Positions 4,854-38,090 of a DNA stretch of 42,540 bases are shown piece after piece. This DNA is from a virus: positions 1-42,540 of IMG/VR virus record IMGVR_UViG_3300043449_000265, one strand, 5' to 3'. Every line of letters starts with the position of its first letter. Position 1 is the stretch's first letter. The notes under the pieces were generated by a model. It was not told the DNA's origin. It saw nothing but the letters and a program-made list of their open reading frames with translations, and made no database searches. Made by a program: the position numbers and the translations under genes.

Positions 4854-5068
4854 TCTTTATCTCTCTTTTCTTCAACAAGTTTCTTAATATCTAAAACTTT
4901 TTCATTCTCAATTAACTGAATACAGATATTGGTTATGTCAATATCTTTTTGTATAAAGAACATTTTTTGTCGGAGGACTTCCAACTGTTCTCTATAATAA
5001 GCCAACTCTTTCTCTTTTCTCTCACGGGTTTCATAGATATCGGTCAAACGGATGATGGTATTAGCCAT
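4850..5068 (-). CDS. Small coiled-coil protein, unknown
   Basis: Predicted 72 residues, highly charged. A heptad-like stretch spans about residues 15-70 (ETRERKEKELAYYREQL onward), which suggests one long coiled coil. No family recognised. It shares one base with the regA stop (TAATG) and overlaps dut by 4 bases, so it is translated in the clamp-loader/regA/dut run. The tight coupling supports a real gene, but no function can be given. Confidence 0.65.
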   Translation of the reverse strand: MANTIIRLTDIYETRERKEKELAYYREQLEVLRQKMFFIQKDIDITNICIQLIENEKVLDIKKLVEEKRDKE

Positions 5069-5481
5069 TATTCCGTTTCTGGATATCTTTTCTTACCTAG
5101 AGAATACTTAGCAACCAAATTCCATTCACCTTTTTCACCATACGATATAATCTTAATGCGGTTGAGAGGTGTGAGTGGTTCGGAACTTTTGTCTTTATCA
5201 ACCAGAGTGACAAGACCCCATTCTGCTAGGAGATTGGCAATAGTATTGCGACGGCCTCTGTCTTCCTCCGAGAAATCGGTAGGTTTGCCGTCTAGCATGA
5301 ACATTTCCTTGAAATGTACCAAATAATAATGACCTTGTTTGTGAAGGATATGACAAGATTGGTATAGTGTCTTATCCTTCTTGGATGCTACACCTATTCT
5401 TGTTAAAGTCTCCTTGACCTTCAGGAACGCCTGCGGGTCAGGTAGTTTTACCTCCACGAAGTCGTCTAGGTTTACTGTCAT
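5068..5481 (-). CDS. regA: RegA translational repressor
   Basis: Predicted 137 residues from ATG 5481, preceded by AAGGTGG; a GTG at 5490 would add three residues. T4 RegA binds ribosome sites of early mRNAs, such as those of gp44, gp45 and gp62, and blocks their translation. The sequence closely follows T4 RegA: FLKVKETLTRIGVA, TLYQSCHILHKQG, YYLVHFKEMFMLDG, EEDRGRRNTIANLLAEWGLV, then WNLVAKYSLGKK near the end. It has the T4 order gp45-gp44-gp62-regA. Its start lies inside gene 62 (44-base overlap), so it is coupled to it and may repress its own run. Confidence 0.93.
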   Translation of the reverse strand: MTVNLDDFVEVKLPDPQAFLKVKETLTRIGVASKKDKTLYQSCHILHKQGHYYLVHFKEMFMLDGKPTDFSEEDRGRRNTIANLLAEWGLVTLVDKDKSSEPLTPLNRIKIISYGEKGEWNLVAKYSLGKKRYPETE

Positions 5482-5854
5482 TGTTGCCACCTTTATGAAT
5501 TCGTTTTCTTATTTCTTCTAATTGGGCATCACTCAGTAAAACCATCACTTGTTTCGCTTTGTCATAAGAATATCCATAATATTCTCTAACGGCCTCCAAG
5601 TTCTCTGAGGTTTCACGTTTTACCCATTTACTATAGGGTCTTTTATACCCACGGATAGTATTTAGGAGATATTGATATTGAAGAGTTCCAGGAAGATTGG
5701 GATACAAATTCATCTGGTTGGCTTGTAAAGCACAATCATAATGGAACGACAATGCTTTATTTATGATATATCCCTGGTAGTCTTTCTCGTCCTCCAGAAC
5801 ATATTGTTTGCTCTGGAGGATGGAAGGTATGATATCTTTGAATAGGTCAGCCAT
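5438..5854 (-). CDS. 62: Clamp loader small subunit gp62
   Basis: Predicted 138 residues. gp62 joins four gp44 subunits to load the gp45 clamp on primer-template DNA. It begins MADLFKDIIPSILQSKQYV, as gp62 proteins do (T4: SLFKDD...), and has the YQYLLNTIRGYKRPYSKWVK segment (about 66-84), which corresponds to the conserved PRGKRYGKW region of T4 gp62. It is shorter than T4 gp62 (187 residues), as in marine T4-like phages. The start shares one base with the gene 44 stop, and the 3' end overlaps regA. Assignment rests on sequence plus gene order. Confidence 0.88.
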   Translation of the reverse strand: MADLFKDIIPSILQSKQYVLEDEKDYQGYIINKALSFHYDCALQANQMNLYPNLPGTLQYQYLLNTIRGYKRPYSKWVKRETSENLEAVREYYGYSYDKAKQVMVLLSDAQLEEIRKRIHKGGNNDSKPRRLRGGKTT

Positions 5855-6789
5855 TACTTGAACTCACATTCTACCATCATTTCAGTTAGACAGGCCACAA
5901 GATTAAGTTCCTGATCGGCCACAAATGCTGCTTGATACTGATACTTGGCAAGAGTAATGACAGCCGCAGGAATACTATCTGGTTTTAGGTATTCATACAA
6001 ACCATCATATACATCTCGAAAGATTCGAGAAGGATCAACATCAGAGTTATTCGCAACCCACTTTCTCATGCCGGAGAAATCTTTTTCTTTTAGTGCCTTG
6101 ATTAGTTCATCGAGTTTACGAACATTGTCCACCTGAGCAAGCACACCAGTATCAATGCGTCCACTAGTAGCATAACGTTGTAATTCGTTGAGAGTCCGGC
6201 GATAGTCTGGAAAATACCGCTCAACAATCTTTCCCAATACTTGCGGATCATATTCAATTCCTTCTGTTGTTAATATTGTTTTTAGGCGTTTGAACATTGA
6301 CATTGCCATCTTGGATTTTTCATCACCTTTGAGTGAGAAATCTACAACGGCACATCTACTATGCAAGGCGTCAATCAATCGTGCCTTAAAGTTACAAGTA
6401 AAGATGAATGAACAGTTTTCACTAAACTCTTCAATAGCACCACGCAGGCCCGCCTGTGCTTCTGGAGTTAGATAATCTGCCTCATCAAGTATAATCACCT
6501 TACGACCACCAGTCAAAGAAATGGTAGATGCATAACCTTTTATCTTTGTTCTGAGAGTATCGATACCTCTCTCTTCGGATGAGTTAATAAAAAGATGATT
6601 AAGTCCAAGTTGTTCACACATTGACTTGGCGATAGTAGTCTTGCCGCAACCGGCAGGACCAGTTAGCATTAGATTTGGTATATTACCATCATTTACATAT
6701 TCCTGAAAGACCGATTTAATACGGTCTGGAAGAATACAGTCCTCAACAGTGTGAGGACGATATTTTTCACATAACAAATATTCACTCAT
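5854..6789 (-). CDS. 44: Clamp loader large subunit gp44 (AAA+ ATPase)
   Basis: Predicted 311 residues, close to T4 gp44 (319). It is the ATPase of the sliding-clamp loader. YRPHTVEDCI (10-19) is the RFC box near the N-terminus, Walker A is GPAGCGKT (44-51), Walker B is VIILDEAD (97-104), and HSRC (142-145) is the SRC arginine-finger motif. The collar domain follows to the end. GAAAGGTC precedes the ATG. A methyltransferase gene has been inserted between it and the gp45 region, while gp62 follows directly. RegA probably regulates it. Confidence 0.95.
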   Translation of the reverse strand: MSEYLLCEKYRPHTVEDCILPDRIKSVFQEYVNDGNIPNLMLTGPAGCGKTTIAKSMCEQLGLNHLFINSSEERGIDTLRTKIKGYASTISLTGGRKVIILDEADYLTPEAQAGLRGAIEEFSENCSFIFTCNFKARLIDALHSRCAVVDFSLKGDEKSKMAMSMFKRLKTILTTEGIEYDPQVLGKIVERYFPDYRRTLNELQRYATSGRIDTGVLAQVDNVRKLDELIKALKEKDFSGMRKWVANNSDVDPSRIFRDVYDGLYEYLKPDSIPAAVITLAKYQYQAAFVADQELNLVACLTEMMVECEFK

Positions 6790-7788: not shown

Positions 7789-7973
7789 TAGTCCACCTCA
7801 ATAATCATACTAGGGTTAATACATTCATACTTAAAGACACCTCTAACAGATACACCGCCGGCGTCTTTACATTTACTTGAATGGTCTGTAGCGGAGAATA
7901 CCATATAAACAAATAGTCCTACGCAACAACCAACAAAAAACATAACAACCATATCGGTTATCTTGCTCATCAT
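7788..7973 (-). CDS. Small single-pass membrane protein
   Basis: Predicted 61 residues. A hydrophobic helix of about 20 residues (VVMFFVGCCVGLFVYMVFSA, about 8-27) follows a short N-terminus. The rest is a small domain with two Cys (C35 and C51) that could form a disulfide if exported. No family recognised. It overlaps gp45 by ATGA and the DsbA-like gene by one base, so it is translated with them. A membrane role during infection is inferred only from the helix. Confidence 0.6.
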   Translation of the reverse strand: MMSKITDMVVMFFVGCCVGLFVYMVFSATDHSSKCKDAGGVSVRGVFKYECINPSMIIEVD

Positions 7974-8626
7974 TTTGTTTCCTGAGCAATGAAATATTTA
8001 AGATTGCCGGCCTTATTAACAAACTTGGCAAAGGCACCAATCTGTAGTTCAACATCATAATCATCAGGAATAAGTTTAAGGTTCTCACTCTTGAAGGTTG
8101 CGATAAAGTCCTTACCAGCATAATCACCAATCTTTGTAGAACCATGATTAGATGTATCATTTGCTTTCTCATGGATCTGTAGCAATAAAGAACCATCCTT
8201 ACCAACTACAGATAGATGTGGAAGGTTATTCATGGAGGCCAACTTTAGCAACCTTGAGATAGAAGCATTTAGTAATGTAAAGGATACATCAACATTCTTA
8301 ATTGTTAGTTCCTTATCGGCAGGTGGTGTAATGATAAGGTTTGGTGAACAAGGAAGATATGTTAAAGTAAAGTCACCTTCGGTCATAGACACGGAGTCTT
8401 TACCAAATGTGATTTCAGGATTGCGTAGGGTTGTAATGTTACCCAGAAAGTTGTTTAGATCATAGATGCCGAACTGTTGAGGAATATCATCTTCAAGAGT
8501 TGCCTCAAGAAGAATAGACCGTTCGGATGACATGGTCTTTTGAACCTTACCAGGGTTTAAAACAACGCCGCTATTAATATTGGCAAAGTTTTTTAGAACC
8601 GTCAAGGTATTTTCACTAAATTTCAT
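7970..8626 (-). CDS. 45: Sliding clamp gp45
   Basis: Predicted 218 residues (T4 gp45 is 228). Trimers encircle DNA, hold the polymerase, and in T4-like phages also activate late transcription together with gp55 and gp33. The N-terminus MKFSENTLTVLKNFANINSG is typical of gp45, and the pattern IYDLNNFLGNI and the C-terminal LKYFIAQETK agree. Position between gp1 and the clamp-loader genes also fits. AAGGAG lies about 8 bases before the ATG. No strong promoter is seen in the 16 bases before it, so it is probably transcribed with gp1. Confidence 0.93.
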   Translation of the reverse strand: MKFSENTLTVLKNFANINSGVVLNPGKVQKTMSSERSILLEATLEDDIPQQFGIYDLNNFLGNITTLRNPEITFGKDSVSMTEGDFTLTYLPCSPNLIITPPADKELTIKNVDVSFTLLNASISRLLKLASMNNLPHLSVVGKDGSLLLQIHEKANDTSNHGSTKIGDYAGKDFIATFKSENLKLIPDDYDVELQIGAFAKFVNKAGNLKYFIAQETK

Positions 8627-10376: not shown

Positions 10377-10451
10377 TGGAGCGAAGAGTGCGGAGTCGAA
10401 CCACACATCACAGAATGGGAATTCTGTGTAATACCTTTATACGATCTTCGC
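10377..10451 (-). tRNA. tRNA-Gly-like gene with atypical loop (anticodon UCC or CCC)
   Basis: The 75-base gene folds as a tRNA. The acceptor is GCGAAGA/TCTTCGC with encoded TCCA. The D-arm is close to that of T4 tRNA-Gly as I recall it (TCGTATAAAGGTATTAC), and the T-loop is TTCGACT. The anticodon arm is ACAGA/TCTGT, enclosing ATTCCCAT, which is 8 bases instead of 7. The T-stem is 6 bp (GTGTGG/CCGCAC) and the variable loop is short (GAT). Aligned with T4 tRNA-Gly(UCC), it carries one extra C next to the anticodon and lacks base 26. It could decode GGA/GGG, read four bases, or be degenerate. A consensus promoter lies 35 bases upstream. Confidence 0.8.
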
Positions 10452-10485: not shown

Positions 10486-10514
10486 ATTATAGCAAGGTAT
10501 TGGTGTAATGTCAA
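10486..10514 (-). promoter_or_regulatory. Consensus sigma70 promoter for the tRNA unit
   Basis: TTGACA (10514-10509), a 17-base spacer and TATAAT (10491-10486) on the minus strand: a full consensus match with the host housekeeping sigma. It lies just after the AAA+ gene stop and drives the tRNA and the winged-helix gene. Confidence 0.85.
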
Positions 10515-10523: not shown

Positions 10524-11741
10524 TTAGAAAGGGCCGGCAGGTCCGTTAGCACCGGCGGCGTATTCTTGTTCCATAGAAGAACCAACGGCACCGGTAGCAC
10601 CTTCAACCGTTTCATCAACCTTCTTATAAAGTTCCATAAAGGCATTCTTTGTATCAATATCAAAACGGTTAAGACACAATTCAATAGCCTTAACTTTATT
10701 TTGATTAAAGATAGCATAGGCCTCGCAGATATGGACAAGGCGGCGGGTGGAGATGATTTCACTCAAAGCACCTTCATAGAAGGATTTGCGGATAACATCT
10801 GCCCAAGTAACCAACTTGTCAACAAACTCCGTGTTCTCAATACCAGATGCACCAAGGACATTGTTAAGGATTTTAGACTCGACTTTAGCAGCAGGATATT
10901 CTTGTTCCATTGTAATAGAGAAACGCTCAAGGAACGCTTCATTCATAACATTGGTGCCGATAAATCGGCCATCATCCGAACCTTTACCTTTAGTATTAGC
11001 AGTTGCAATCACATTGAAACCAGCGGTTGGATGAACAACTCGATTAGTTTTTTTCAAGTAAACTGCTTTACCTTCGAGGACTGGTTGAAGGCACATAAGT
11101 TTATTTGAACCAAGGTCAACTTCGTCCAAGAGTAATAAGGCACCGCGTGACATAGCAGTAATAACAGGGCCATCCTGCCATACTGTTTCACCGTTGACAA
11201 GGCGGAAGCCACCGATAAGATCATCTTCATCCGTTTCGATTGTAATATTAACACGTACCATTTCACGTTTTTCAGTGGCACATATTTGTTCAACCATCAT
11301 TGTTTTACCATTACCAGAAAGTCCAGTAATATAAGTTGGATAAAACTTTTTAGATTTAACAATAGAACGGACATCAGCAAAATGTCCAAATGGAACATAA
11401 CCAGTGGCCTTTTCAGGGATCAAAGACAACTCAGCATTATTAGAAACAACCGAAGGTGCAACCATAGCAACGGCAGTTTCAGGAATAACTAGCGCTTTAG
11501 GTGCTAAATCGGGAAAAGGTTTAATTGCCTTACGTGCAACGGTAATAGGTGCACCATTTTCTGGAAGAGAATAGATACCACGGCCAATTTTACGGTCAAC
11601 GTCATTTAAAATCCAGTTAGGTTTATCAAGTCCATACTTGTCGCAGATTTGAAGAACCTGTGGACGAGTGATTGAACGAATAGCACCGAACTCAAAACGG
11701 ATTTTGTCGAGGAATTCGTTACGATCTACCTTCTTAACCAT
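10524..11741 (-). CDS. cobS: MoxR/CobS-type AAA+ ATPase
   Basis: Predicted 405 residues from ATG 11741 with AAAGGAAAAG upstream; longer in-frame starts fall in the promoter. A small N-terminal helical domain (1-60) is followed by a Pro/Val-rich linker. The AAA+ core has Walker A GLSGNGKT (140-147), the insert DDLIGG (173-178), Walker B LLLLDEVD (202-209), sensor 1 Asn249 and an FLERF arginine finger (270-274). This is the MoxR/CobS clade, whose members pair with VWA proteins and remodel or metallate partners. Marine phage copies are often called CobS, but no CobN is present here. The zinc-motif/VWA gene upstream is the likely partner. The locus has its own consensus promoter. Confidence 0.85.
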   Translation of the reverse strand: MVKKVDRNEFLDKIRFEFGAIRSITRPQVLQICDKYGLDKPNWILNDVDRKIGRGIYSLPENGAPITVARKAIKPFPDLAPKALVIPETAVAMVAPSVVSNNAELSLIPEKATGYVPFGHFADVRSIVKSKKFYPTYITGLSGNGKTMMVEQICATEKREMVRVNITIETDEDDLIGGFRLVNGETVWQDGPVITAMSRGALLLLDEVDLGSNKLMCLQPVLEGKAVYLKKTNRVVHPTAGFNVIATANTKGKGSDDGRFIGTNVMNEAFLERFSITMEQEYPAAKVESKILNNVLGASGIENTEFVDKLVTWADVIRKSFYEGALSEIISTRRLVHICEAYAIFNQNKVKAIELCLNRFDIDTKNAFMELYKKVDETVEGATGAVGSSMEQEYAAGANGPAGPF

Positions 11742-11777
11742 TACATCTTTTCCTTTCACATTTCTCATTATATATGG

Positions 11778-11806
11778 ATTATAGCACAAGGAATGGTCGG
11801 TGTCAA
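11778..11806 (-). promoter_or_regulatory. Consensus sigma70 promoter for the AAA+ gene
   Basis: TTGACA (11806-11801), 17 bases, TATAAT (11783-11778) on the minus strand. The TGA stop of the 112-residue gene lies inside the -35 box. The leader to ATG 11741 is about 30 bases. Confidence 0.85.
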
Positions 11807-12141
11807 CCTCTAAAAGGTTTGTAAACAGACTTGTTTTCCTTCTTCTTCTTTTTATTGTAAGCCTTTTTGATTTCCTCAGGGTATGTAAACAAGCACAAAT
11901 CGGCACTCGTACCTTCCCAAGGTTCCCACCGTTTTACAAGTGACCGAGTAACTTGCTTATCATATGCATCCGTACCATACGTTAGATCATATAAGTCAAA
12001 CTTATTCATAGGATACCATATACGGCGAAAACGCCAATAGTTGGTTTCATAGTAATCATTAACCCAATCTGCATATCGACCATAATCTCGATTAGGTGAC
12101 TTTGATCGATATGATCTCATATCATGTTTATATTGTTTCAT
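11803..12141 (-). CDS. Unknown 112-residue protein between VWA and AAA+ genes
   Basis: Predicted 112 residues, rich in Tyr, Trp, Arg, Asp and Lys. An aromatic N-terminal half (YGRYADWVNDYYETNYWRF, about 20-38) leads to a short KKAYNKKKKKENKS basic tail. No family recognised. Its ATG overlaps the last base of the VWA gene, so the two are coupled. Its stop is built into the next promoter. Constant placement between the two partners would suggest an adaptor or substrate of the AAA+/VWA machine, but that is inference. Confidence 0.65.
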   Translation of the reverse strand: MKQYKHDMRSYRSKSPNRDYGRYADWVNDYYETNYWRFRRIWYPMNKFDLYDLTYGTDAYDKQVTRSLVKRWEPWEGTSADLCLFTYPEEIKKAYNKKKKKENKSVYKPFRG

Positions 12142-14333
12142 TATGCAACCTTCTTTGATTGTCCTGCAATACGATCAACAAACTGACGGAGCAGGACACG
12201 ATTTACAGTTTTCTTTTGTGCAAACTTAGAGAATGCCTTAGCCATTTGTCTAGCGGTATTCTTCTTAGTATTATCAATAAGCAACTCGTTGGTTGAATTT
12301 TTTAGTGCCTTGGAGTCAATAACATAATATTCATCATACCCGGCACTCTTGATAGGATAGAACTTGTTATCGTTCCAGAACTTTTGGATTTCTTTCAATT
12401 TATCATAGTTATCTTTAAGATAGAATTGACTAGCAAACTTATTGAAAGAGTTACCAAACAAGAAGAAACCAACAAGATTACAACCAGTGCGTTCTTTAAG
12501 GATACGCAAGAGAGTTGTAGTATTAGTATCCGTTCCACCATAACCCCAAGGATACCAATCATATGTTTTGCGAGTTACCTTGTCAACGTAAAAGTAACGG
12601 CGTGATTGATTAGGCACACGAGGAGTAGTTTCGTTTTTAATACCTTCACTTGGATTGGAGTCACCATCTGTAAGGAAGATAGTATTAACAATTTCAAGTT
12701 TATTCTTAGCGCGGAAATCCTCAACAAGTTTTGGCGCAATCATAATAGCATGATTAAGTGGTGTGCCACCCATACCATCAGTTGTCAACCAGTTCCGATT
12801 AGAAGCAGCCCAAAGAACGGTCATTGCAAAATTCAATTCTTGAATATTCATACGTGAGGAAAGGAAGTTGCGAAGGACAAGATTTGATCCACCAATTACA
12901 TTTTCTTGGCCGATATATGTAAATGGATTATCACAACCGCAATCTTTAAAGGCATACACCTCAAAAGGCACTCCAATTTGTTTACAGAATAAACAAAGGG
13001 AGAAAAGTTGCTTCATGGTATCTTTCAAGTTCCATTGCATAGAACCAGACCAGTCAAGGAACATAATAAAGCCGTGGTTCTTACCTTTTGGAATATTAGT
13101 AAGACGGCGGAAGATATCATCATTATACTTGTATGAATGAAGTTTATTTGTATCAATAACACCAGTCTTGGAGATATTGATACGGGCATACATTTCTGCA
13201 GCCTTCTTTTGTTCAAACTCTTTTACAAGGAAAGAGATTGTTTCCTTCTCTTTCATTTTCCATGCGGTCATTTGTTTGCGATTAAACTCAAAAACATCTC
13301 TTGATATATAACCACGGCCAACCTCAAGGGTGAGCCATTCATCAAGGACTACTTTATAGTCGTGAACAGCCTTGTCCCAATTTACTTGAGGCATATTCAC
13401 ATAGACGTAGGTTGAGTTTTCGTCCTTAACGATATCTTGGGATTTTTTCTGCCATGTTTCATCAGTTTCGGAAACAGGAGCATTTTCAGGCATAAAGTCA
13501 CCGGGGCCGGCGCCATTATTTACTGAGTCGGATTGAATATCACCTTCGCCGTTTAGTGCGTCGGATTTTCCTTCACCTTCACTGGAATCGGTTTCATTTT
13601 CGGCGTTTTCGCTTTCAATGCTATCGTCCCAATTACCGTTGTTATCAGTATCAATGTTGCTATCATTACCGTCTTCTCCTTCTTCGGACTCGATTAGATC
13701 AAGTTCCATTGTTTGTTGGTTTTCAAGTTTCTCTTTACAGTAGATATAGATTTCTTCTGTAAGACCAACAACTTCCTCGAATGTTTCAAGACCTTCAGCC
13801 CGTTTTAGGAACACTCGTTCTTCGGGTGAAAACTCCATTTTATAGTTGATATTACCACCCTTGAAATAAATATTTAGGCGGTCAATAAAGTTCATGGTAT
13901 TAATATCACGTTTAGCCGTGCCAAAGAAATCACGTTCTACCAATTCACGATAACCGATAAGGTAGTTTTTACGTGAACCGGGATAGCGGCGTTTTTGGCG
14001 CTTATCGATACGGGCATCCTCAACACAGTTAAGAAAACCTTGAACTGTTTTCTTTAGTTGTTCGGAGATTGTTTCGTTAGGGAAAACACGGGCAGCAATA
14101 CCTTCATATGCCTTTTTATATGTCTCAGCATCGGGAGTATCTAAAGCATGGCCCGTCTCATGGACGATAAGGAGGTCTTGGAGATCATTTGAGATGCCTT
14201 GCCAAATAGGCAGCATCAATACACGGCCTTTAAGGTCAAACATGGCGGTCTTAATGCCTGGTGTTTGCTGAACCGTAATATTTTCCGTAGCAAGGAGTTT
14301 TGCCAAGAGAGACGTTTGATTTCCGTTAGACAT
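12141..14333 (-). CDS. Metallopeptidase-like protein with VWA domain (CobT-like)
   Basis: Predicted 730 residues from ATG 14333 (MSNGN). An upstream in-frame ATG overlaps the promoter -10 box. Near the N-terminus HETGH (58-62) is a zinc-peptidase HExxH motif. NCVEDARIDKRQKRRYPG (102-119) resembles the downstream acidic motif that would give the third zinc ligand. A very acidic linker runs through about 220-330. The C-terminal VWA domain has a full MIDAS: DWSGS (427-431), GGTPL near 523 and TDGDS near 555. CobT and other VWA proteins serve MoxR/CobS ATPases, and such an ATPase is two genes downstream. Substrate is unknown. Activity of the zinc site is inferred from motif only. Confidence 0.82.
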   Translation of the reverse strand: MSNGNQTSLLAKLLATENITVQQTPGIKTAMFDLKGRVLMLPIWQGISNDLQDLLIVHETGHALDTPDAETYKKAYEGIAARVFPNETISEQLKKTVQGFLNCVEDARIDKRQKRRYPGSRKNYLIGYRELVERDFFGTAKRDINTMNFIDRLNIYFKGGNINYKMEFSPEERVFLKRAEGLETFEEVVGLTEEIYIYCKEKLENQQTMELDLIESEEGEDGNDSNIDTDNNGNWDDSIESENAENETDSSEGEGKSDALNGEGDIQSDSVNNGAGPGDFMPENAPVSETDETWQKKSQDIVKDENSTYVYVNMPQVNWDKAVHDYKVVLDEWLTLEVGRGYISRDVFEFNRKQMTAWKMKEKETISFLVKEFEQKKAAEMYARINISKTGVIDTNKLHSYKYNDDIFRRLTNIPKGKNHGFIMFLDWSGSMQWNLKDTMKQLFSLCLFCKQIGVPFEVYAFKDCGCDNPFTYIGQENVIGGSNLVLRNFLSSRMNIQELNFAMTVLWAASNRNWLTTDGMGGTPLNHAIMIAPKLVEDFRAKNKLEIVNTIFLTDGDSNPSEGIKNETTPRVPNQSRRYFYVDKVTRKTYDWYPWGYGGTDTNTTTLLRILKERTGCNLVGFFLFGNSFNKFASQFYLKDNYDKLKEIQKFWNDNKFYPIKSAGYDEYYVIDSKALKNSTNELLIDNTKKNTARQMAKAFSKFAQKKTVNRVLLRQFVDRIAGQSKKVA

Positions 14334-14357: not shown

Positions 14358-14386
14358 ATTATAGCAAATCAAGTTGAGTTTGTCAA
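14358..14386 (-). promoter_or_regulatory. Consensus sigma70 promoter for the VWA gene
   Basis: TTGACA (14386-14381), 17 bases, TATAAT (14363-14358) on the minus strand. The transcript starts close to 14351 and reaches ATG 14333 after the GAAAGGA ribosome site. Confidence 0.85.
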
Positions 14387-14542: not shown

Positions 14543-15070
14543 CTATTTTTTTGTAACACGATAGACAGAGGCCCTACCAATACCAAGATATCTTGCTATA
14601 GCAGTAGCACCTAATCCTTGTTCTTTTAGTTCTAAAACCTTTTCTGTGTCTATACTTATCTTGCGACCTTTATATACACCTTTTTCTTTTGCTTTTTTTA
14701 TTCCTCTTTTTTGATTTATTTTCCATAATGATTTATCTTTAATTTCAGTTCGGCTGTTTCTAAACACATTAACATTTAAACATGTACCACCAAATTTATA
14801 TATTCCATAATCATTTAAGTGCTGGACTATTTTTTCTGCTTCTTCTTTTAGCAAACGTTCATTATCATATTCATAATAACCCCAAGATAGTATCTCTTTA
14901 GTTTTAAGATATTTTTTATCATTCCAAAAATGTTTATATGTTGATGGTGTTCCCATATAAACATCATTTTCTGGTAGACAATAACATGACCTAATTCCTA
15001 TGTAATACAATTCCGGATCATCACTATAGACATTTTTTAATGTTATTTTATACACATAAGTATATTTCAT
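14543..15070 (-). CDS. GIY-YIG-like nuclease with Hin-type HTH tail
   Basis: Predicted 175 residues. The N-terminus YTYVYKITLKN followed by LYYIGIRSC (about 3-29) looks like the two strands of the GIY-YIG nuclease fold, with VYK in place of GIY. YMGTPSTYKHFW and the later KEEAEKIVQHLN also fit GIY-YIG-type homing enzymes, which use Arg and Glu for catalysis. The last 46 residues (KGVYKGRKISIDT to the end) match the HTH of Hin/Tn3 resolvases. Together that suggests a homing or selfish endonuclease with a borrowed DNA-binding tail. It is AT-rich, starts in the stop of the DruA-like gene (TAATG) and lies in an accessory block. Confidence 0.65.
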   Translation of the reverse strand: MKYTYVYKITLKNVYSDDPELYYIGIRSCYCLPENDVYMGTPSTYKHFWNDKKYLKTKEILSWGYYEYDNERLLKEEAEKIVQHLNDYGIYKFGGTCLNVNVFRNSRTEIKDKSLWKINQKRGIKKAKEKGVYKGRKISIDTEKVLELKEQGLGATAIARYLGIGRASVYRVTKK

Positions 15071-16329
15071 TATCTTCCTACCTGTGATAGATACTTAGCC
15101 TTTGTTTCTTCCCAATCCATAAAGATTAGGTCATCATAGAAAAGAGTTTCCTTAGAAACACGGTCTTGTTCAACTAAGGACTTGATCCGTTTTCCTGCAT
15201 ACTTATCTTTCCATAGATTTACCAGAGCATCATAACTGGAATCGAACGCCTTGGCAAGTTCTTTCTCGGAGATTTCCTTACGAAGAAATTCGTTGGTGTT
15301 GGTATACAAAGGACTAAAATAGATTCCGCGGGCGTGCTCGGAACGAATTAGTTCTTTATCAATACCAAGTTGAGAATACATAAATGTATAAGATCGGTTC
15401 TTGTGGTCTCTCTTGTATGGCATACCGTCAAGGTTCTTTGCAACATACCACTCAAAGTATTTTCTTGTATGGTTCTTCTTCAACCAATCAAGCATTAATT
15501 TTACAGTAGGTTTTCTTGCCTCATAAGACACAGAGCCTGATGTGAAGCCCATTTTTTTCCAATGTTGCAGGCGATCATACTGTGATAACTGGTTAGTTTT
15601 AGACTTACCATATAATGATGTAGTAGTAACGCCAATGAGTGTATCACCATATTGTTTTTTCCAATCTTGTTGTACCTTATCACAAAGACAAAGTAATGCT
15701 AGAAGTTTACCGCCTGTATAGTTATAACCAAGCGGTTGTAAAGGCACAATGGTAGAACCAATGGCCGTGTGATTGATCATACCTTGATTTGTCTTAACCT
15801 CACGGGACCAACCAATATAATTATCTCTTGGTGTCAGGTCAAGGAAGTCGGATGAAATACAAATAACACCAAGATATTTACCTGTAACATCATCTTGAAC
15901 AATATAAGATAAATTACGGCCAATATTGGAGTTATTCTTCATTGTAGAAGTAAAGTTGCGAATAGTATTCCAAGTGTCTTGCATATCAAATTCAGGAGTA
16001 TAAACAAGGACTGGTTTTAGTTTCGCATAGTCCATTGGATCATTAGGAATCCAGATGTTATCTTTAATCTTATTGATTGCAAGTTCCTGTTCACCGTCTT
16101 CAAGACAAGTGCCAAATAAACCTTCATGTGTAGGATATTTAATATGTATCTCAAGCCATTTTTGATAGAGAGTATATTCCTCTACGGACATTTTAGAAAC
16201 ATTAGTAAGGTCCTCAACAACAACCTTTTTTAGTTCATCATCGTTAAGGGCCTCTGGTGCTTCAAATGTGGATTGAAATAAGTCCCATTGCTTTTCAACA
16301 TCTTTTAGTTCATCTTCACTTTTTGCCAT
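15070..16329 (-). CDS. DruA-like protein (DUF4338 family)
   Basis: Predicted 419 residues. The middle part fits DUF4338, the family of Druantia defence protein DruA. LGVICIS (153-159) and TPRDNYIGWSRE (166-177) correspond to the RDRxIGW motif. GGKLLALLCL (206-215), DWKKQYGDTLIGVTTTS (222-238) and YDRLQHWKKMGFTSG (251-265) correspond to the DW..YG..L..T......Y....W...G.T.G motifs. The 110-residue N-terminus and 150-residue C-terminus are extra. No DruB-E or helicase partner is present, so it is not a full Druantia locus. Solo DruA-like genes occur in phages; a role in counter-defence or DNA modification is only inference. It precedes the GIY-YIG/HTH gene. Confidence 0.62.
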   Translation of the reverse strand: MAKSEDELKDVEKQWDLFQSTFEAPEALNDDELKKVVVEDLTNVSKMSVEEYTLYQKWLEIHIKYPTHEGLFGTCLEDGEQELAINKIKDNIWIPNDPMDYAKLKPVLVYTPEFDMQDTWNTIRNFTSTMKNNSNIGRNLSYIVQDDVTGKYLGVICISSDFLDLTPRDNYIGWSREVKTNQGMINHTAIGSTIVPLQPLGYNYTGGKLLALLCLCDKVQQDWKKQYGDTLIGVTTTSLYGKSKTNQLSQYDRLQHWKKMGFTSGSVSYEARKPTVKLMLDWLKKNHTRKYFEWYVAKNLDGMPYKRDHKNRSYTFMYSQLGIDKELIRSEHARGIYFSPLYTNTNEFLRKEISEKELAKAFDSSYDALVNLWKDKYAGKRIKSLVEQDRVSKETLFYDDLIFMDWEETKAKYLSQVGR

Positions 16330-17839: not shown

Positions 17840-17868
17840 ATTCTACTAGGTTATTGTTCTTTTGTCAA
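17840..17868 (-). promoter_or_regulatory. Sigma70-like promoter before the accessory operon
   Basis: TTGACA (17868-17863), 17 bases, TAGAAT (17845-17840) on the minus strand. The -35 box encodes the Leu-Thr near the end of gp46. It should drive the small genes, the oxygenase, DruA-like and GIY-YIG genes. Confidence 0.65.
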
Positions 17869-19572
17869 GACCGAAAAGTTTTTTACCTTTTCAAACTTTA
17901 CCGTTCTTTGGAACCTATCCACCATAGCATCTTTATGTGATATAACAAATATATTAGTTCCTTTATCACCCATATCCCACATGATCTTAATAAACTCATC
18001 TATTCCTGTGGCATCCATAGCACGATCAAGGATTTCATCAAACACAAGAATGTTGACGTTGACCGAGTTTTTGAGTTTGGCAATCTGTCTCCATGTAAGG
18101 AGAATTGCCAAGTCTATTCTTAACTTTTCTCCTTCGCTGAAATTATGGTAGGAGAACTCATCTCGGTATCTTGACTTGATTGTTTCCTCAAAGGACTCAT
18201 TGATGTTAAAGTTGACGAAGAAACCAAGCTTTGCCAGATACTTGTTGATGTGCTTGTTGATGATCGGTAGATATTGCTTAATAATCTTAGTTTTGATTCC
18301 ACCATCTTTGAGTAGAGTAGTAGCGAGGTCGATGTAGGTCCGTTCATCTAAAAGGGCCTTCTTTTCTTCTTCGAGGGTGGAAATATCATGTTGAACTGTT
18401 TCGAGTTGTCGTTCGCTGTCTTGGGTGGTTTTATCCGATGATGCGAAAGATTCAATCTGTTCAATGATTTGTGCCAGATTATTCTCAATAGAGTTATAGG
18501 AAGTCTTAGAAGATGAAATAGATACTCTAAGGTCATTGATCTTCTTTAAAACCTCGTCAATCTTCTCAATTTCACCAAGGCATTGATCAATCTGTTCGGA
18601 GACCTTATTTAGTCCTTCACTAATTTCACCGATCTTAGAATTGTTATCTTCTATTGCTTTTTCTTTATGTTCTGGTACTATATCTTGCTTACAGGTTGGA
18701 CAACTATCATTATCATGGTAAAAGGCCACCTCTTTCTGTAGTCTCTCCTGATTATTCTCCATTTTAGCACGGAATCCAACTAATTTGCTATGCTTTGATT
18801 TTAATGCGGAGGTATCTGCACCGGCCTCAATTAGTCTATCTCTTTGACCTTCTAAGTCGGAAATGACTGTTTGTTCCAAAACTAAACTATCTTTTAGTTC
18901 CTGTTCTTTTTCTCTTAATTGAGAAACTTTGCTTTCATTATTGACCTTTAACGAGGCCAAAGTTTGCTCAATGTAAGTTTTATTTTCTTCTTTGCTGGTG
19001 AGTGTAATTCTATTCTTTTCCAGTCCTTCTCTGTTTAACTGCAAGCGGTTCTTCACCACATTAGACATAGCGGAAAATATTTGTATGTCTAATAGATCCT
19101 CAATAACCGATCTACGATCACCAGGTGATAACTGCATAAAGGGAACGAATGATGCCGAACCTAGAATAACAACCTGTGTAAAGGACTTAAAGTTCATCTT
19201 TAGAATATGTTTTTCTAGGTGCTCTTGGTAGTCCTTAGCTGCCGCATCTTGATTGACCATCTTATCTTCACAATATATTTCAAAGATGTTTGGCTTAGCA
19301 CCACGAATAATCTTATATCGTTTATTAGAAACAGTGAACTCAATTTCAACCACACAGTTTTTACCGTTGATGCTATTGATTACATTACCTTTATTTACCT
19401 TACGAAAAGGTTTACCAAACAAAACAAACACGATGGCATCTAGAAAGGTGGACTTTCCGGCACCATTGTGTCCCATAATCAAGGTATTCTTATGTGTGTC
19501 TAGTCCAATCTCAGTCCAATTGTTACCAGATGATAAGAAGTTTTTATATCGTATAGTATGGAAAGTAATCAT
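17851..19572 (-). CDS. 46: Recombination endonuclease subunit gp46 (Rad50/SbcC-like)
   Basis: Predicted 573 residues (T4 gp46 is 560). With gp47 it forms the phage Mre11-Rad50-type complex that resects ends and degrades host DNA for recombination-dependent replication. Walker A is GHNGAGKS (34-41). Two long coiled coils flank a zinc hook CPTC (291-294). The signature FSEGEKLRID lies near 477, and Walker B/D-loop ILVFDEILDRAMD near 507. It overlaps the upstream DUF6445-like oxygenase gene by 4 bases, and that gene in turn follows gp47. The operon probably starts at the promoter at 22012-22040. Confidence 0.95.
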   Translation of the reverse strand: MITFHTIRYKNFLSSGNNWTEIGLDTHKNTLIMGHNGAGKSTFLDAIVFVLFGKPFRKVNKGNVINSINGKNCVVEIEFTVSNKRYKIIRGAKPNIFEIYCEDKMVNQDAAAKDYQEHLEKHILKMNFKSFTQVVILGSASFVPFMQLSPGDRRSVIEDLLDIQIFSAMSNVVKNRLQLNREGLEKNRITLTSKEENKTYIEQTLASLKVNNESKVSQLREKEQELKDSLVLEQTVISDLEGQRDRLIEAGADTSALKSKHSKLVGFRAKMENNQERLQKEVAFYHDNDSCPTCKQDIVPEHKEKAIEDNNSKIGEISEGLNKVSEQIDQCLGEIEKIDEVLKKINDLRVSISSSKTSYNSIENNLAQIIEQIESFASSDKTTQDSERQLETVQHDISTLEEEKKALLDERTYIDLATTLLKDGGIKTKIIKQYLPIINKHINKYLAKLGFFVNFNINESFEETIKSRYRDEFSYHNFSEGEKLRIDLAILLTWRQIAKLKNSVNVNILVFDEILDRAMDATGIDEFIKIMWDMGDKGTNIFVISHKDAMVDRFQRTVKFEKVKNFSVLTKEQ

Positions 19573-20300: not shown

Positions 20301-21377
20301 TTATACAGTTTCTACCTGCTGTGCCTCTTGATATACGTCTAACATAAACGATTTCATTCTAGCAGATTCCACAGGTAAAGTCAATCCATCAATATACTTA
20401 GAAAGGATAGTTGCTGTATCTTCCGCTTCATCAACGGAATCGGCATCTTCATTTTCTAACAATACTGATGGATCTTCAACAATCTGTATATCTAAAGGAC
20501 CTGCTTTATATATGGAATCAAAAAGTAGATCAAATGCATAAGGATTAGATTTATTAATCACCACTAACTTAACGTAGGTATTCTTATACTTACTAAAGTC
20601 TGTGCCTTGTATCTTTTCTACAATGTTAGGATTGGCAACGTCATCATACTTTGCAATTCTAAACATCTTATAAGGATTTTGTATAAACTCTAGAATACGT
20701 GTTTCTGTATCAAAGACAGAAAATCCTCTAGGGTCTGAGTAATCATGCCAAGTATATTCAGCAAAGGCACCAATGTAAGAAACATTACCAATAGTAGAAC
20801 GATGATGGTAATGTCCGCTATAGACTTTATCAAACTTGTCAAAAACTTTACGATCCAGTCCATGATCCGATATCAATCCTTTATGCATTGTGAAACCGTT
20901 TAGTTCTAGGTGACCCATAAGAACCTCGGCCCTAGGATGTTCAATTACATCCATTGCTTGTTCACGGTTTGATGCCGTGATCCAAGGCATTATTTGTATA
21001 TCCAACCCATCAATATTAATAATGTCAGGTAAACTATAAGTATTAATACACCTATATCTTCCAACAACAAGTTCATCTAATGCGTTTACCTCATGTGTAT
21101 CTTTGTAATAGGAGTCATGATTACCTTGTATGATGTGGGTTTCAATACCACGATCTTCTAAGGGATCGAGTAGGTCTTCTCTACACCTTTTGGCGGAGAG
21201 GAAGTTGATATATTTCCGCCTGTCGAAAATGTCACCAAGGTGTACCACATGGCCAATAGAATTAGTATCAATATAGTTGAAGAACCAGTCATAACAGCAT
21301 TTTTGATATTCGTGAAACGCCGGGTTATCATTTCTTACTCCTGCATGTGTATCCGTTATCATAGCAATTTTTGTCAT
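20301..21377 (-). CDS. 47: Recombination endonuclease subunit gp47 (Mre11-like)
   Basis: Predicted 358 residues (T4 gp47 is 339). It is the nuclease partner of gp46. The calcineurin-type metal motifs are in order: DTH (9-11), GDIFD (48-52), GNHDS (85-89), then GHLELNG and YSGHYHHRS, the later His ligands. The C-terminal 100 residues hold the capping domain and an acidic stretch. It overlaps the upstream oxygenase gene by 4 bases, so it is translated with it. Function and pairing are well known for T4. Confidence 0.95.
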   Translation of the reverse strand: MTKIAMITDTHAGVRNDNPAFHEYQKCCYDWFFNYIDTNSIGHVVHLGDIFDRRKYINFLSAKRCREDLLDPLEDRGIETHIIQGNHDSYYKDTHEVNALDELVVGRYRCINTYSLPDIINIDGLDIQIMPWITASNREQAMDVIEHPRAEVLMGHLELNGFTMHKGLISDHGLDRKVFDKFDKVYSGHYHHRSTIGNVSYIGAFAEYTWHDYSDPRGFSVFDTETRILEFIQNPYKMFRIAKYDDVANPNIVEKIQGTDFSKYKNTYVKLVVINKSNPYAFDLLFDSIYKAGPLDIQIVEDPSVLLENEDADSVDEAEDTATILSKYIDGLTLPVESARMKSFMLDVYQEAQQVETV

Positions 21378-26964: not shown

Positions 26965-28326
26965 TTAGGTTAGGTTACGAACGCGGAAAATGCGGTAGTA
27001 GATGTTGGCCTGGCCGCTTGTGTTGCGGTCACCAACTACACCGTCGCCATTTGCCGTGGCGAATGGGTTTGCCACCATTCCGTAACGTGTCTTAAAGCCA
27101 ATCTTTGGCTGGAAGGTGTCTTGGCCAATTGCACGAACCATCTGTAGTGGAACGTATGGGCAGTAGAACAAGCCGGCATCAAATGGTGATGTACCACGAT
27201 AACCAACTGTTACAAGCTCGTCGCCGTTTGCTGAACCACCGAAATAAGGATCAATATAAACCTTAATACGGCCGTGTAGCATACCAACGAAGGTGTTGCC
27301 TGTATCGTCAACTGTTAGATCAGCGGAAAGAGCAGGTGTGTAAGAAAGAACACCAGCCATTGCCATTGCTGAAGCAACGTCTGAAGAAACGATAAGGACG
27401 TTGCCTTTGCCTCTACGGGTTGCTTTTGCGATAGCGTTAGCGTCACGCTCAATCTGGAAAATAAGACCTTTGAACTTCTCAACTGACCAACGGCCGTTTG
27501 AGTCTGTGTCAAGATCGAATGTACCAGCAGTTGTAACACCATACTGAGCACCAACTGATGCTGTGCGGTAAATTGTGCGGATAACTTCACGGTTGATTTC
27601 AGCCAAGATTTCTGTTGAAAGAATGTTGGCCAATTCTGTCTCAGCATCAAGGCCGTGAATGGCTTTAAGATCCTGAGCAAGTTCTGTGGTGTATTCTGCT
27701 TTTAGAGCGCGTGAACGGGCAGTAACAGTGACCTTGTCAATGTTGAATGCCATTTCAGCAAAAGCATTACCTGATGTGCCGTCGCCAAGAGCTTCAGCCT
27801 GTGCAGTTGACATGCCTTTACCAACACCGAAAGCGGAAGAAGTTCCGAGAGCGGCAACTGGGTTTGTGTTAGCAATGTCACCTGAAACTGTGCCATCAAG
27901 ACCACCAGCAGAGTTCTGTGAAGCGAAAGCTGTGTTGGCTTCGAAGAATAGTGCTTCACCTGTGGTGCCTGCACCTTGTGCTTGCATTTCTTTATAACGT
28001 GAACGCATAGCGAAGATAAGGCCTGTTGGGCCGGTCATTGGTTGAACGCCGCAAACGTCATAAGCAATTAAGTTTGGAAGCGCACGACGAACGAGTGAGA
28101 TAAGGATTGGGTCGTATGAACCAACGCCTGTACCAGAACCGAGACCACCACCAGAGTTGGTAGGAGCGGACTCGTTAAGAGTGCGGGACTCTTCAGCCAT
28201 TGCCTTTTCTTGGTTCTCAAGAATAACGGCTGTAACCGCACGGCGGTATGGGTCTTTAATCTTTGAGAGACCGTCGTGGTCAAGAACTGGTGACCACTTC
28301 TGCTCTAGGTTTTCTGTAAGATACAT
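26965..28326 (-). CDS. 23: Major capsid protein gp23
   Basis: Predicted 453 residues (T4 gp23 is 521). It builds the hexameric head lattice in the HK97 fold. The N-terminal propeptide has the T4 protease motif LNE before SAPTNSGG (cleavage expected after E52). VRRALPNLIAYDVCGVQPMTGPTGLIFAMRSRY (split at its centre as written: about 79-111) is the classic gp23 signature used in PCR surveys. GLFYCPYVPLQMVRAIG and FQPKIGFKTRYGMVANPF near the end also match. It has a late-type box upstream and a strong terminator downstream. It precedes a tube-like gene rather than gp24, which is not seen in the window. Confidence 0.96.
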   Translation of the reverse strand: MYLTENLEQKWSPVLDHDGLSKIKDPYRRAVTAVILENQEKAMAEESRTLNESAPTNSGGGLGSGTGVGSYDPILISLVRRALPNLIAYDVCGVQPMTGPTGLIFAMRSRYKEMQAQGAGTTGEALFFEANTAFASQNSAGGLDGTVSGDIANTNPVAALGTSSAFGVGKGMSTAQAEALGDGTSGNAFAEMAFNIDKVTVTARSRALKAEYTTELAQDLKAIHGLDAETELANILSTEILAEINREVIRTIYRTASVGAQYGVTTAGTFDLDTDSNGRWSVEKFKGLIFQIERDANAIAKATRRGKGNVLIVSSDVASAMAMAGVLSYTPALSADLTVDDTGNTFVGMLHGRIKVYIDPYFGGSANGDELVTVGYRGTSPFDAGLFYCPYVPLQMVRAIGQDTFQPKIGFKTRYGMVANPFATANGDGVVGDRNTSGQANIYYRIFRVRNLT

Positions 28327-28355
28327 TTTAGTTTCCTTCTTTCTTTAACTAAAGT

Positions 28356-28362
28356 TATTTAA
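28356..28362 (-). promoter_or_regulatory. Late promoter box before gp23
   Basis: TTTAAATAAC on the minus strand, about 30 bases before the gp23 ATG, right after the gp22 stop. GAAGGAAAC is the ribosome site. Confidence 0.55.
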
Positions 28363-28363
28363 A

Positions 28364-29776
28364 TTACTTTGGAAGATTTCTACCAAGTGCTTGGACATAT
28401 TTAGCCATTGGGCCTTCAAGATTTGATTCGGAAATCATTCTTGGGTCGGCCGACTCAACACGGTCAAGAACCTCATCGGTCTTAACAGCAGCTGGGAAAT
28501 AATTCTCCCGTAGTGTTGAAATCTTTTCGATAAACTGATCATCGTCAGCGTAAGCAACATTCTCAACGAGACCTTTTAGTTTCTCTGCTTGAGTTGTTGT
28601 TAGGCCTTCACAAACATAAGCAACCAATTCATTCTTACGGGATTCAGCAATCATGCCTGTGAGAGCAACATTGCGTTCGATTTCCTCATTAAGTTTAGCT
28701 TCAAGATCCTCAACTGTCTGTGAAAGTTCCTCTACAACGGCAACTTCCTCTTCAGGAATGTCGATGTAGTGTTCGGCAAATAGTGAACGGAGACCGCCGA
28801 TGAAATCTTCTGTAAGTTCGCTACGGAGAGCAGACTCAACAGCAACTTCATTTTCTTCGATCCACTGTTCAACTACGTAATTAAGATAGTTATCAACGTT
28901 GGTTGAAAGTTCTTCCATAATTTCGGAAACTCTTTCTTCCAATGTTTCTGCATAAGCCTGTTCAAGTAGAGCAACTTCTTCTTCAAGTTTTGCTTTAACA
29001 GCAGCTTCGAAGATTGTTGTTGCTTTAGCATGAAATTCTTCTGATAGGTTTTCACCTTCTAGAAGCGCATTAACATGTTCCGACATATCAACCTGATATG
29101 ACTCTACTGGTGATTCCTCTGTTTCTTCATCAAGAACTTCTTCATCGAATTCAAAGTTCTCTTCGATAGCAGCAAGGATCTCTTCTTCTGAAAGACCTGC
29201 TTCGATGCCTTCGTTAATGAAATCTTCTAGTTCTTCGGAAAGTTCTAGTTCTTCTTCCATACACTTGTCATCTTCATCGTCATGGTCGTCGTCTTTTTTC
29301 ATCTTTGACTTTTTAGCAGCTTCTTTGATGGTAGCGACACGTTCTGCAATTGCGTTTGTTTCAGCAACTACTGAACCTTCTTCTTCCATCTCTTCGGCCA
29401 TTGCTGGTTGTGATTTAAGGGATTTCTTTGTTTCTGGTGAAACACTAGCCTTTGATGACTTTGATGTGTCTTTGCCTGTCTTACCAGCAGCCTTGGCACC
29501 GAGGTTATCGGAAGCAACTGATGTAGGTGTAGCACCACCTAGATCGTCAACACCACCGAATGATGATGCATCTGGGCCATTTGGATTGGAAAAACGGCTT
29601 TCAGGTGACTTTGAACCTGGATGTAGTGTTTTAGCATTGACGGTTGATGCTGTTGAAGGATCAACTGGATTAGGGTTTGACACGCCGCCGGCCAATGGAC
29701 CGACAGATGGGATACCCTCATTCAATTGCTTACCTTCAAGCACTGCCTTCGCTGCTTCTGTAAGTGATTTACTCAT
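28364..29776 (-). CDS. 22: Prohead scaffold protein gp22
   Basis: Predicted 470 residues (T4 gp22 is 269). It forms the internal core around which gp23 assembles and is then degraded by gp21. The N-terminal 130 residues are Gly/Ser/Asn/Pro-rich and low in structure. About 130-250 is very acidic (MEEEGSV, KKDDDHDDEDDK), and the middle and C-terminal parts are long helices with coiled-coil pattern (LEAKLNEEIERNVALTGMI). The last 40 residues fit the conserved gp22 C-terminus. It lies between gp21 and gp23 as in T4. It is much longer than T4 gp22, mainly in the N-terminal acidic half. Confidence 0.88.
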   Translation of the reverse strand: MSKSLTEAAKAVLEGKQLNEGIPSVGPLAGGVSNPNPVDPSTASTVNAKTLHPGSKSPESRFSNPNGPDASSFGGVDDLGGATPTSVASDNLGAKAAGKTGKDTSKSSKASVSPETKKSLKSQPAMAEEMEEEGSVVAETNAIAERVATIKEAAKKSKMKKDDDHDDEDDKCMEEELELSEELEDFINEGIEAGLSEEEILAAIEENFEFDEEVLDEETEESPVESYQVDMSEHVNALLEGENLSEEFHAKATTIFEAAVKAKLEEEVALLEQAYAETLEERVSEIMEELSTNVDNYLNYVVEQWIEENEVAVESALRSELTEDFIGGLRSLFAEHYIDIPEEEVAVVEELSQTVEDLEAKLNEEIERNVALTGMIAESRKNELVAYVCEGLTTTQAEKLKGLVENVAYADDDQFIEKISTLRENYFPAAVKTDEVLDRVESADPRMISESNLEGPMAKYVQALGRNLPK

Positions 29777-29806
29777 AAGTTAGATACTCCTTTTTCTATA
29801 TCTAGT

Positions 29807-29813
29807 TATTTAG
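29807..29813 (-). promoter_or_regulatory. Late promoter box before gp22
   Basis: ACTAAATAACTAG on the minus strand, about 30 bases before the gp22 ATG. It lies just past the gp21 stop and is followed by AAAAAGGAG. Confidence 0.7.
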
Positions 29814-29818
29814 TATTT

Positions 29819-30466
29819 TCAAAGTTTTGAAATATAATTTTCAAAAATCTTTAAGGCTACTGATTCCAATTCATGCCTGGAAGACTCTTTAATAAGTTTT
29901 CTCGCACGGTCATTAGACTGTTCGGTCCATTGACCATTTAAGAATAACCACTCTTTACCTTCCATAATTCCACGAACGAATGCCTCTGGTGCTGATGGGT
30001 CGGCCACAACATCTGCTGCTGTTGCTAACTTATAATCATCTTGGACTTGTTGAAAACCGTTGTGTGGTTTAAGAGACCCTACGCCTCTTGTTGACACACC
30101 AAGGCTTGCACCACCATCTAGTAAACTCTTAACGATTTTTCCGTTTGGAGTATCTAAAATCTTTGCTTTACCAATAAAGTTTGTCCCGTCAGGATGTAAT
30201 GATGTAATCATGTGGGACACACGGTCTAGGTTAATTTGAGGATTCTCAGGATGACCTAGCTCACCAAATGCTCTATTCTTCTGGACGTATTCGCGGTTAT
30301 ATCTGTCCGCTTCTTTGGCAAGGACACTCATAGGATATACACGGCCGTTTCTATTGACCTTTTCAGCCTGCATGAAGATACCTTGGATAAAGTGGTTCTT
30401 ACCACCCTTACCATCGGACTCTGTTAGATACTGAATGTCTAAAATTTCTTCGGTTATAAGTTTCAT
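29819..30466 (-). CDS. 21: Prohead protease gp21
   Basis: Predicted 215 residues (T4 gp21 is 212). It cleaves scaffold and capsid proteins inside the prohead. FGELGHPENPQINL (68-81) carries the catalytic His72, and GGASLGVSTRGVGSL (118-132) carries the catalytic Ser125. This is the herpes-assemblin-like serine protease pattern. VNRNGRVYP (38-46) is the conserved N-terminal segment. A CTAAATATACC box and an inverted repeat lie just upstream. It sits between the head-core genes and gp22, as in T4. Confidence 0.94.
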   Translation of the reverse strand: MKLITEEILDIQYLTESDGKGGKNHFIQGIFMQAEKVNRNGRVYPMSVLAKEADRYNREYVQKNRAFGELGHPENPQINLDRVSHMITSLHPDGTNFIGKAKILDTPNGKIVKSLLDGGASLGVSTRGVGSLKPHNGFQQVQDDYKLATAADVVADPSAPEAFVRGIMEGKEWLFLNGQWTEQSNDRARKLIKESSRHELESVALKIFENYISKL

Positions 30467-30476
30467 TTGTTTCCTC

Positions 30477-30496
30477 TACCTAGTAGGTATATTTAG
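30477..30496 (-). promoter_or_regulatory. Late promoter box and inverted repeat before gp21
   Basis: CTAAATA (30496-30490) on the minus strand, followed directly by TACCTA-C-TAGGTA (13 bases, near 30489-30477). The repeat lies at the expected transcription start, which might mark a hairpin at the RNA 5' end. Confidence 0.6.
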
Positions 30497-30501
30497 GCGT
30501 T

Positions 30502-31769: not shown

Positions 31770-31771
31770 TT

Positions 31772-32959: not shown

Positions 32960-32970
32960 ATTGTTATCCT

Positions 32971-33129
32971 TTACTGTGCAAAATAATCGGAAGCAATTTG
33001 CTTTTTCTTTTCTTCCAATTTCTCTTGAGCCTTCTCTTGTAGAGCGGCCATAAAGTTATCTTTCATAGCGCCGAGATCATTTTCTAGGATGTTCTCAATC
33101 GCCTCATTGATAAGGTTTTGATTTTCCAT
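32971..33129 (-). CDS. 67: Possible internal in-frame gp67-like product
   Basis: ATG 33129 within the 858-residue gene is preceded by GAGGA with 7 bases spacing, a strong ribosome site. Translation from here would give 52 residues, MENQNLINEAIENILENDLG followed by a charged helix and SDYFAQ. That is close in size and pattern to prohead core protein gp67 and to the short core proteins of marine T4-like phages. It might be made both as a fusion and alone. No promoter is visible. This is an inference from the ribosome site and the T4 pattern. Confidence 0.5.
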   Translation of the reverse strand: MENQNLINEAIENILENDLGAMKDNFMAALQEKAQEKLEEKKKQIASDYFAQ

Positions 33130-37982: not shown

Positions 37983-38007
37983 GCTGTGTCTCCATCTTAG
38001 ACATAGA

Positions 38008-38035: not shown

Positions 38036-38042
38036 ACTTTTT

Positions 38043-38070: not shown

Positions 38071-38075
38071 TGTTA

Positions 38076-38083: not shown

Positions 38084-38090
38084 TTACAAA

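Follow-up and report, generated by a model that had tools for sequence, protein, structure and literature searches.

Results

A metallopeptidase-VWA gene and an AAA+ ATPase gene

The DNA analysed here (the window) is a stretch of 42,540 bases, IMG/VR virus record IMGVR_UViG_3300043449_000265, which is a fragment and not necessarily a whole genome, and which has the gene content of a T4-like aquatic virus. Two genes on its minus strand are considered: one encodes a 730-residue protein with metallopeptidase motifs and a VWA domain (12141..14333), and the other a MoxR/CobS-type AAA+ ATPase of 405 residues (10524..11741). Between them lies an open reading frame (ORF) of 112 residues on the same strand (11803..12141). 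The coordinates, reading frames and motifs of the three ORFs are as an earlier reading of the sequence alone (the original prediction) had given them, including the position of the ATPase gene two genes downstream of the VWA gene.

The 730-residue protein matches phrog_459 ('peptidase', CobT-like) with an E value of 4e-183 over residues 2-723, and the ATPase matches phrog_249 (E = 2e-118 over residues 98-384) and AAA_5 (6e-19). The two genes are same-strand neighbours between gp46 and gp45, as in the T4-like loci that carry phrog_459 and phrog_249. The ATPase gene is downstream of the peptidase gene in 75 of 80 viral loci, and the contigs of the other five stop within that gene or shortly past it, so that the order holds in all 75 viral loci with enough downstream sequence. 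Both the family identity and the linkage of the pair are near certain. In three loci from genome assemblies (L091, L092 and L096) the ATPase gene lies upstream of the peptidase-VWA gene, not downstream. A tblastn search of 50,697 phage records found the 730-residue protein in 463 and the ATPase in 547, both totals including 365 records named for Synechococcus, 61 for Cyanophage and 24 for Prochlorococcus.

The 112-residue ORF is lineage-specific. Its homologues occur only in three close relatives (L002, L003 and L025), no match to it was found in the 50,697 phage records, and it is therefore no conserved part of the system. The suggestion that its product is an adaptor or a substrate was rejected on this ground; when gene order was compared among relatives, as had been proposed, the ATPase and VWA genes stayed together and the intervening ORF did not stay with them.

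Motifs and predicted fold

The 730-residue protein has all the parts ascribed to it in the original prediction, namely an HETGH zinc-peptidase motif, a later acidic motif, an acidic linker and a VWA domain with a complete metal ion-dependent adhesion site (MIDAS). HETGH occupies residues 58-62 (14148..14162, minus strand), on a predicted helix of residues 49-65. The later acidic motif is NCVEDARIDK (residues 102-111; 14001..14030, minus strand), on a helix whose E105 is a candidate third zinc ligand. The linker (residues ~215-290; 13464..13691, minus strand) is acidic in sequence and predicted to be disordered, with a predicted local distance difference test score (pLDDT) of 25-47 over most of its length. 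The VWA domain (12309..13076, minus strand) includes DWSGS at 13041-13055, and its MIDAS set consists of D427, S429, S431, T524 and D556. No variation is seen among 34 non-redundant relatives at H58, E59, H62, E105 or any of the five MIDAS residues. The start codon, ATG at 14333, is consistent with the promoter described below and with a AGAAAGGA ribosome site.

When modelled alone, the N-terminal domain has a pLDDT of 92.8 (about 97 at HETGH) and a predicted template modelling score of 0.88. The model places HExxH on the helix of residues 49-65 and E105 on that of residues 91-116, in the order that a gluzincin-like site would have. A functional zinc-peptidase site in the 730-residue protein is probable, and the label 'peptidase' is correct at the level of the motif.

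Database searches give less. The protein has no Pfam match at E <= 0.01, NCBIfam yields nothing useful, and a plasmid search returned no match. Its PDB matches by sequence are weak and mostly to acidic low-complexity regions, with no significant zincin among them. By fold, the top two PDB matches of the N-terminal domain are ArdC (E = 0.39) and an M61 aminopeptidase (E = 1.1), neither of them significant; ArdC is an HExxH metallopeptidase-like antirestriction protein. The matches of this domain to predicted viral proteins are first to phage and haloarchaeal-virus proteins labelled 'CobT' or VWA, followed lower down by PolyVal metallopeptidase, SprT-like and IrrE proteins. With the full-length protein, VWA domains head the PDB fold matches, among them that of NorD in MoxR-type NorQ-NorD complexes. 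DUF2201_N, which represents cellular metallopeptidase-VWA proteins, gives a single weak match, to one of the relatives (E = 0.78), and hardly any in alphaproteobacteria.

The ATPase has PDB profile matches to CobS (1e-29) and also to midasin, NorQ and CbbQ. Its Walker A (GLSGNGKT; 11301..11324, minus strand) and Walker B (LLLLDEVD; 11115..11138, minus strand; D206 and E207), the sensor N249 and R273 of the arginine-finger region are all present, and these key residues are invariant across 30 non-redundant relatives.

Comparison with CobT and CobS

The HExxH motif and its downstream glutamate were counted from alignments, in loci not selected for the motif. They are kept in all 134 viral-type loci that cover the site (73/73 loci of T4-like viruses, 43/43 of the SSU5-like type, and 18/18 phage-like contigs from genome assemblies), even where identity in the domain falls to about 17%. 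In contrast, HExxH is absent from the homologous site in all of 30 alphaproteobacterial proteins that score above the CobT equivalog cut-off; the sequence there is RGxADAxALRLRHHD, while a downstream E-x-A-R-x-E motif is retained in most of them. The 730-residue protein is therefore not CobT. An apparent HExxH in the CobT ORF of locus L155 was discarded, as it sits in a translated stretch 5' of the gene proper, where another frame encodes CobS.

The two families are nevertheless related. A comparison with hhalign of the T4-like proteins with a set from SSU5-like phage-plasmids, IncC plasmids and Rhizobium gives E = 5e-35 with HExxH aligned to HExxH, a value somewhat inflated by six SSU5-like rows in the T4-like profile (A3); an independent full-length comparison without these rows gives E = 6.5e-17, in the VWA core. 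The same intermediate set aligns with CobT over 582 columns (E = 3e-44), with HExxH opposite the degenerate CobT stretch. By this two-step bridge, the homology of the N-terminal domain with that of CobT is established at the level of sequence profiles.

HExxH is also found in single proteins of an IncC plasmid and of Rhizobium, Cobavirinae, Roseobacter, Gordonia, Tsukamurella, Rhodococcus and Vibrio phages; in ICP2 the Glu is apparently replaced by Asp. It is lost in Acinetobacter p5669 (QEVAK), Pseudomonas nickie (SEISK) and Stenotrophomonas BUCTxx99 (REVST). The simplest reading of this unrooted comparison is that the peptidase-type domain is ancestral and was lost several times, once in CobT.

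The equivalog models agree with a separation from the cobaltochelatase. The 730-residue protein has no match to TIGR01651 (CobT) at E <= 1, and its phage and plasmid relatives score 86-143 bits against a cut-off of 759. The ATPase scores 90.8 bits against TIGR01650 (CobS), below the cut-off of 558.55. A CobS tree divides the T4-like proteins from cellular CobS, with full support for each group; distant phage rows cannot be placed in it because of their long branches. No match to CobN (PF02514) was found in the 42.5-kb record, a fragment that says nothing on the whole genome. The original prediction had stated that neither CobN nor any other cobalamin gene is present; the first part holds for this fragment, and other cobalamin genes were not searched for individually. 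Its judgement that a chelatase is unsupported can be upheld, as the pair is inseparable in relatives and HExxH is intact here and absent from CobT.

Even among cellular genomes, CobT and CobN do not always go together: 15 of 33 alphaproteobacterial genomes with an equivalog-level CobT have no CobN match (their completeness is not known), and the control Caulobacter vibrioides has CobT and lacks CobN. Cellular CobST may thus have a role outside cobalamin synthesis. Moreover, relatives of the pair are found in phages of Pelagibacter, Vibrio cholerae and enterobacteria, hosts that are not known to have a CobN pathway.

Gene neighbourhood

The structural genes of the window (terminase, sheath, tube, portal, head protease, scaffold and major head protein) are at 26965-42140, and the head maturation protease encoded there is phrog_207. 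After this block, PHROGs assignments give the order UvsW, gp47, gp46, the ATPase/VWA locus, gp45, gp44, gp62 and RegA. On the minus strand, gp47 (20301-21377; phrog_100, 2e-95) and gp46 (17851-19572; phrog_77, 4e-168), for the recombination nuclease, are on one side of the locus, and the gp45 clamp (7970-8626), gp44 (5854-6789), gp62 (5438-5854) and RegA (5068-5490) are on the other.

This arrangement is general in T4-like loci with enough sequence, gp46 being upstream in 57 of 64 and gp45 downstream in 48 of 54; in S-PM2 the order is gp47-gp46-peptidase-CobS-gp45-gp44-gp62-RegA-gp43. Outside this group, the pair is followed by dnaE in pHCM2, X66, p5669 and BUCTxx99, the order in Pseudomonas nickie is primase-ligase-pair-dnaE, and in ICP2 and T5S1 the pair is near primase, helicase and polymerase genes. 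In the conjugative IncC plasmid pEC2-1/2a (L188, 1061-9054), the genes for the CobS-like ATPase and a HEAAH-VWA protein stand on either side of ssb, bet, exo and a DUF3150 gene. With related modules counted once, a plain tally gives about four independent replication or recombination contexts.

Close upstream of the pair in the window, on the minus strand, is a homologue of DruA, of the Druantia protein family (PF14236, E = 1e-23; 15070-16329), relatives of which occur at about the same position in many T4-like viral loci. Between it and the pair, a 175-residue protein (14543-15070, minus strand) has a C-terminal resolvase-type helix-turn-helix (PF02796).

Promoters

A perfect TTGACA-17-TATAAT promoter stands ahead of each of the two large genes, as the original prediction had stated, at 14358..14386 (53 bases upstream of the start codon of the peptidase-VWA gene) and at 11778..11806 (65 bases upstream of that of the ATPase gene), both on the minus strand. 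A third perfect promoter, at 10486..10514 (minus strand), lies 35 bases upstream of a tRNA-like gene with anticodon CCC (Gly) at 10381..10451 (minus strand) and so serves a gene adjacent to the pair but outside it. The tRNA-like gene is found by Rfam (RF00005, 33.3 bits against a gathering threshold of 29), while ARAGORN reports no tRNA at this site. All three promoters share a common extended TGCTATAAT -10 element.

The window contains nine promoter matches with at most one mismatch against 0.8 expected, a number reached in none of 100 shuffles. All nine of these sigma-70-like sites are within 7-24 kb, and the structural half has none. Among relatives, the VWA gene is preceded by such a promoter in 29 of 39, almost always at a distance of 52-55 bases, and the ATPase gene is so preceded in 35 of 44, for the most part at 60-67 bases; the control frequency was 52 in 1500 random 160-base stretches. 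The promoters are therefore beyond chance, considering both their excess and their recurrence at nearly the same positions. The T4 late-promoter motif TATAAATA occurs once against 4.9 expected. Host sigma-70-type promoters, as predicted here, are compatible with early or middle expression.

Discussion

A possible replication-stage remodelling machine

The two gene products are proposed, with a probability of roughly 0.5, to form an AAA+ remodelling machine that has an intact zinc-protease site and acts at the stage of replication. The genes would be transcribed from the host-type sigma-70 promoters. The CobS/MoxR-type ATPase would form a ring and engage the MIDAS of the VWA protein, whose N-terminal zincin-type peptidase domain would be held on the flexible acidic linker. 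ATP-driven remodelling may then hand a bound protein to the peptidase domain, which would bind zinc and trim or remove the protein presented. Given the location in a replication and recombination block, the likeliest substrates would be proteins on or around replicating phage DNA. A role of the pair in replication or recombination, taken by itself, is plausible, if somewhat short of an even chance; the gene neighbourhood is the main reason for preferring it to virion assembly or host takeover.

Several observations weigh against this proposal. No significant zincin match exists in the PDB by either sequence or fold. In nickie, BUCTxx99 and p5669 (L182, L192 and L084), HExxH is gone and the VWA domain, the ATPase and the dnaE neighbourhood are kept, so that proteolysis is dispensable for the core function in these elements, which offer a natural test of its importance. 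The T4-like loci are not independent of one another, because their gene order is inherited, and the dnaE-adjacent cases are probably of single origin. In the Gordonia, Tsukamurella and Rhodococcus phages, the neighbours of the pair are unannotated.

Alternative explanations

The losses of HExxH just described, in three mobile-element lineages and in CobT, all with the pair kept, would suit a zincin domain that binds metal or peptide without cleaving it, the pair being a pure MoxR-VWA chaperone or a metal-insertion factor. Moreover, the MoxR relatives NorQ and CbbQ, which are among the PDB profile matches of the ATPase, activate metalloenzymes. However, the catalytic glutamate of HExxH is never lost in the 134 loci, which binding alone would not demand, and this explanation is considered unlikely.

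Equally unlikely is a virion-assembly chaperone that processes structural proteins, which Iyer et al. (2021, PMC7824862) proposed for the metallopeptidase-VWA/MoxR pair of group 2.2 jumbo phages, and for which ATV p618/p892 offer an analogy. The architecture described for the jumbo-phage pair is the same, and assembly of complexes is common for MoxR-VWA pairs. The pair here, however, is in the replication block and away from the structural genes, where none of the nine sigma-70-like sites is found; conjugative IncC plasmids carry it with ssb-bet-exo; and the phage has a separate head maturation protease.

An early protease that degrades or remodels host proteins, the reading favoured in the original prediction, is less likely still. 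Strong host-type promoters and an intact peptidase motif would fit it, but the pair belongs to the core and keeps its place across T4-like relatives, unlike takeover genes, which tend to be variable, and nothing was found in favour of action against host proteins, the neighbourhood being the phage's own replication and recombination block.

Least likely is the published proposal of a viral CobST that hijacks host CobN to give an active cobaltochelatase and more cobalamin (Liu et al. 2021, PMC8651126), for although both subunits are truly homologous to CobS and CobT, and CobN is possible in cyanobacterial hosts to judge from the control Synechococcus elongatus, the HExxH counts, the equivalog scores, the CobS tree (apart from distant phage rows on unsure long branches), the range of hosts and the cellular CobT without CobN all stand against it.

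Relation to known systems

In the original prediction, a phage-encoded protease-coupled remodelling machine was thought to be new. This is not borne out, because the pair is known in the cyanophage core and a MoxR-VWA-metallopeptidase pair has been described in jumbo phages. cobS is a published cyanophage core gene (PMC3037559), and the cobST cluster was counted in the cyanophage core by Liu et al. (PMC8651126), who named the pair cobST and deemed 'peptidase' a mistake. The 'peptidase' and 'cobS' of the T4-like cyanophage core (S-PM2, P-SSM7 and HTVC008M) are the same two families in the same order and gp46-gp45 position, identity in the peptidase domain being mostly 35-72% for T4-like relatives. 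The present record differs in its extra 112-residue ORF and in its perfect promoters; distant relatives have weaker ones or none.

The account of the group 2.2 jumbo-phage pair in PMC7824862 gives it the same N-terminal metallopeptidase, VWA domain and MoxR partner, a likeness by description and not by sequence, in another phage group and with virion assembly as the proposed role; the passages on this pair do not connect it with the cyanophage genes. With an intact MoxR-class AAA+ ATPase, a complete MIDAS and predicted HExxH and Glu helices, the present pair appears to belong to the same kind. The additions made here are a comparison with real CobT for HExxH, a homology bridge between the families, and the setting of the pair among replication genes.

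The 'CobT/CobS' pairs of SSU5-like phage-plasmids, Rhizobium X66 and IncC plasmids likewise combine an HExxH-VWA protein with a CobS-like ATPase near replication or recombination genes, but they adjoin dnaE or bet/exo and not gp45/46; X66 and pHCM2 are nearer to CobT, with TIGR01651 E values of 1e-24 to 1e-26, still below the cut-off. With CobNST, the pair shares a homologous ATPase and, by the bridge, domain-for-domain homology with CobT, and differs from it in the motif, the equivalog scores and the lack of CobN in the record. NorQ-NorD and CbbQ-CbbO, finally, are also MoxR-type rings with a VWA partner; they are not known to have a metallopeptidase domain.

Implications

More speculatively, and with considerable doubt, the phage and plasmid 'CobST' proteins might all form one replication-coupled AAA+ metalloprotease family that clears or trims proteins on replicating or recombining DNA, in the manner of Spartan with p97, and bacterial CobT might descend from it, having lost the peptidase site and taken on a role in cobalt insertion.

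Phage 'cobS' has often been counted as a vitamin B12 auxiliary metabolic gene (e.g. PMC11705849). If the motif evidence holds, claims of B12 metabolism for phage 'cobS' and 'cobT' would rest on a paralogue, a core phage machine would have a putative proteolytic function, and the idea that cobaltochelatase arose from a protein remodeller would become testable.

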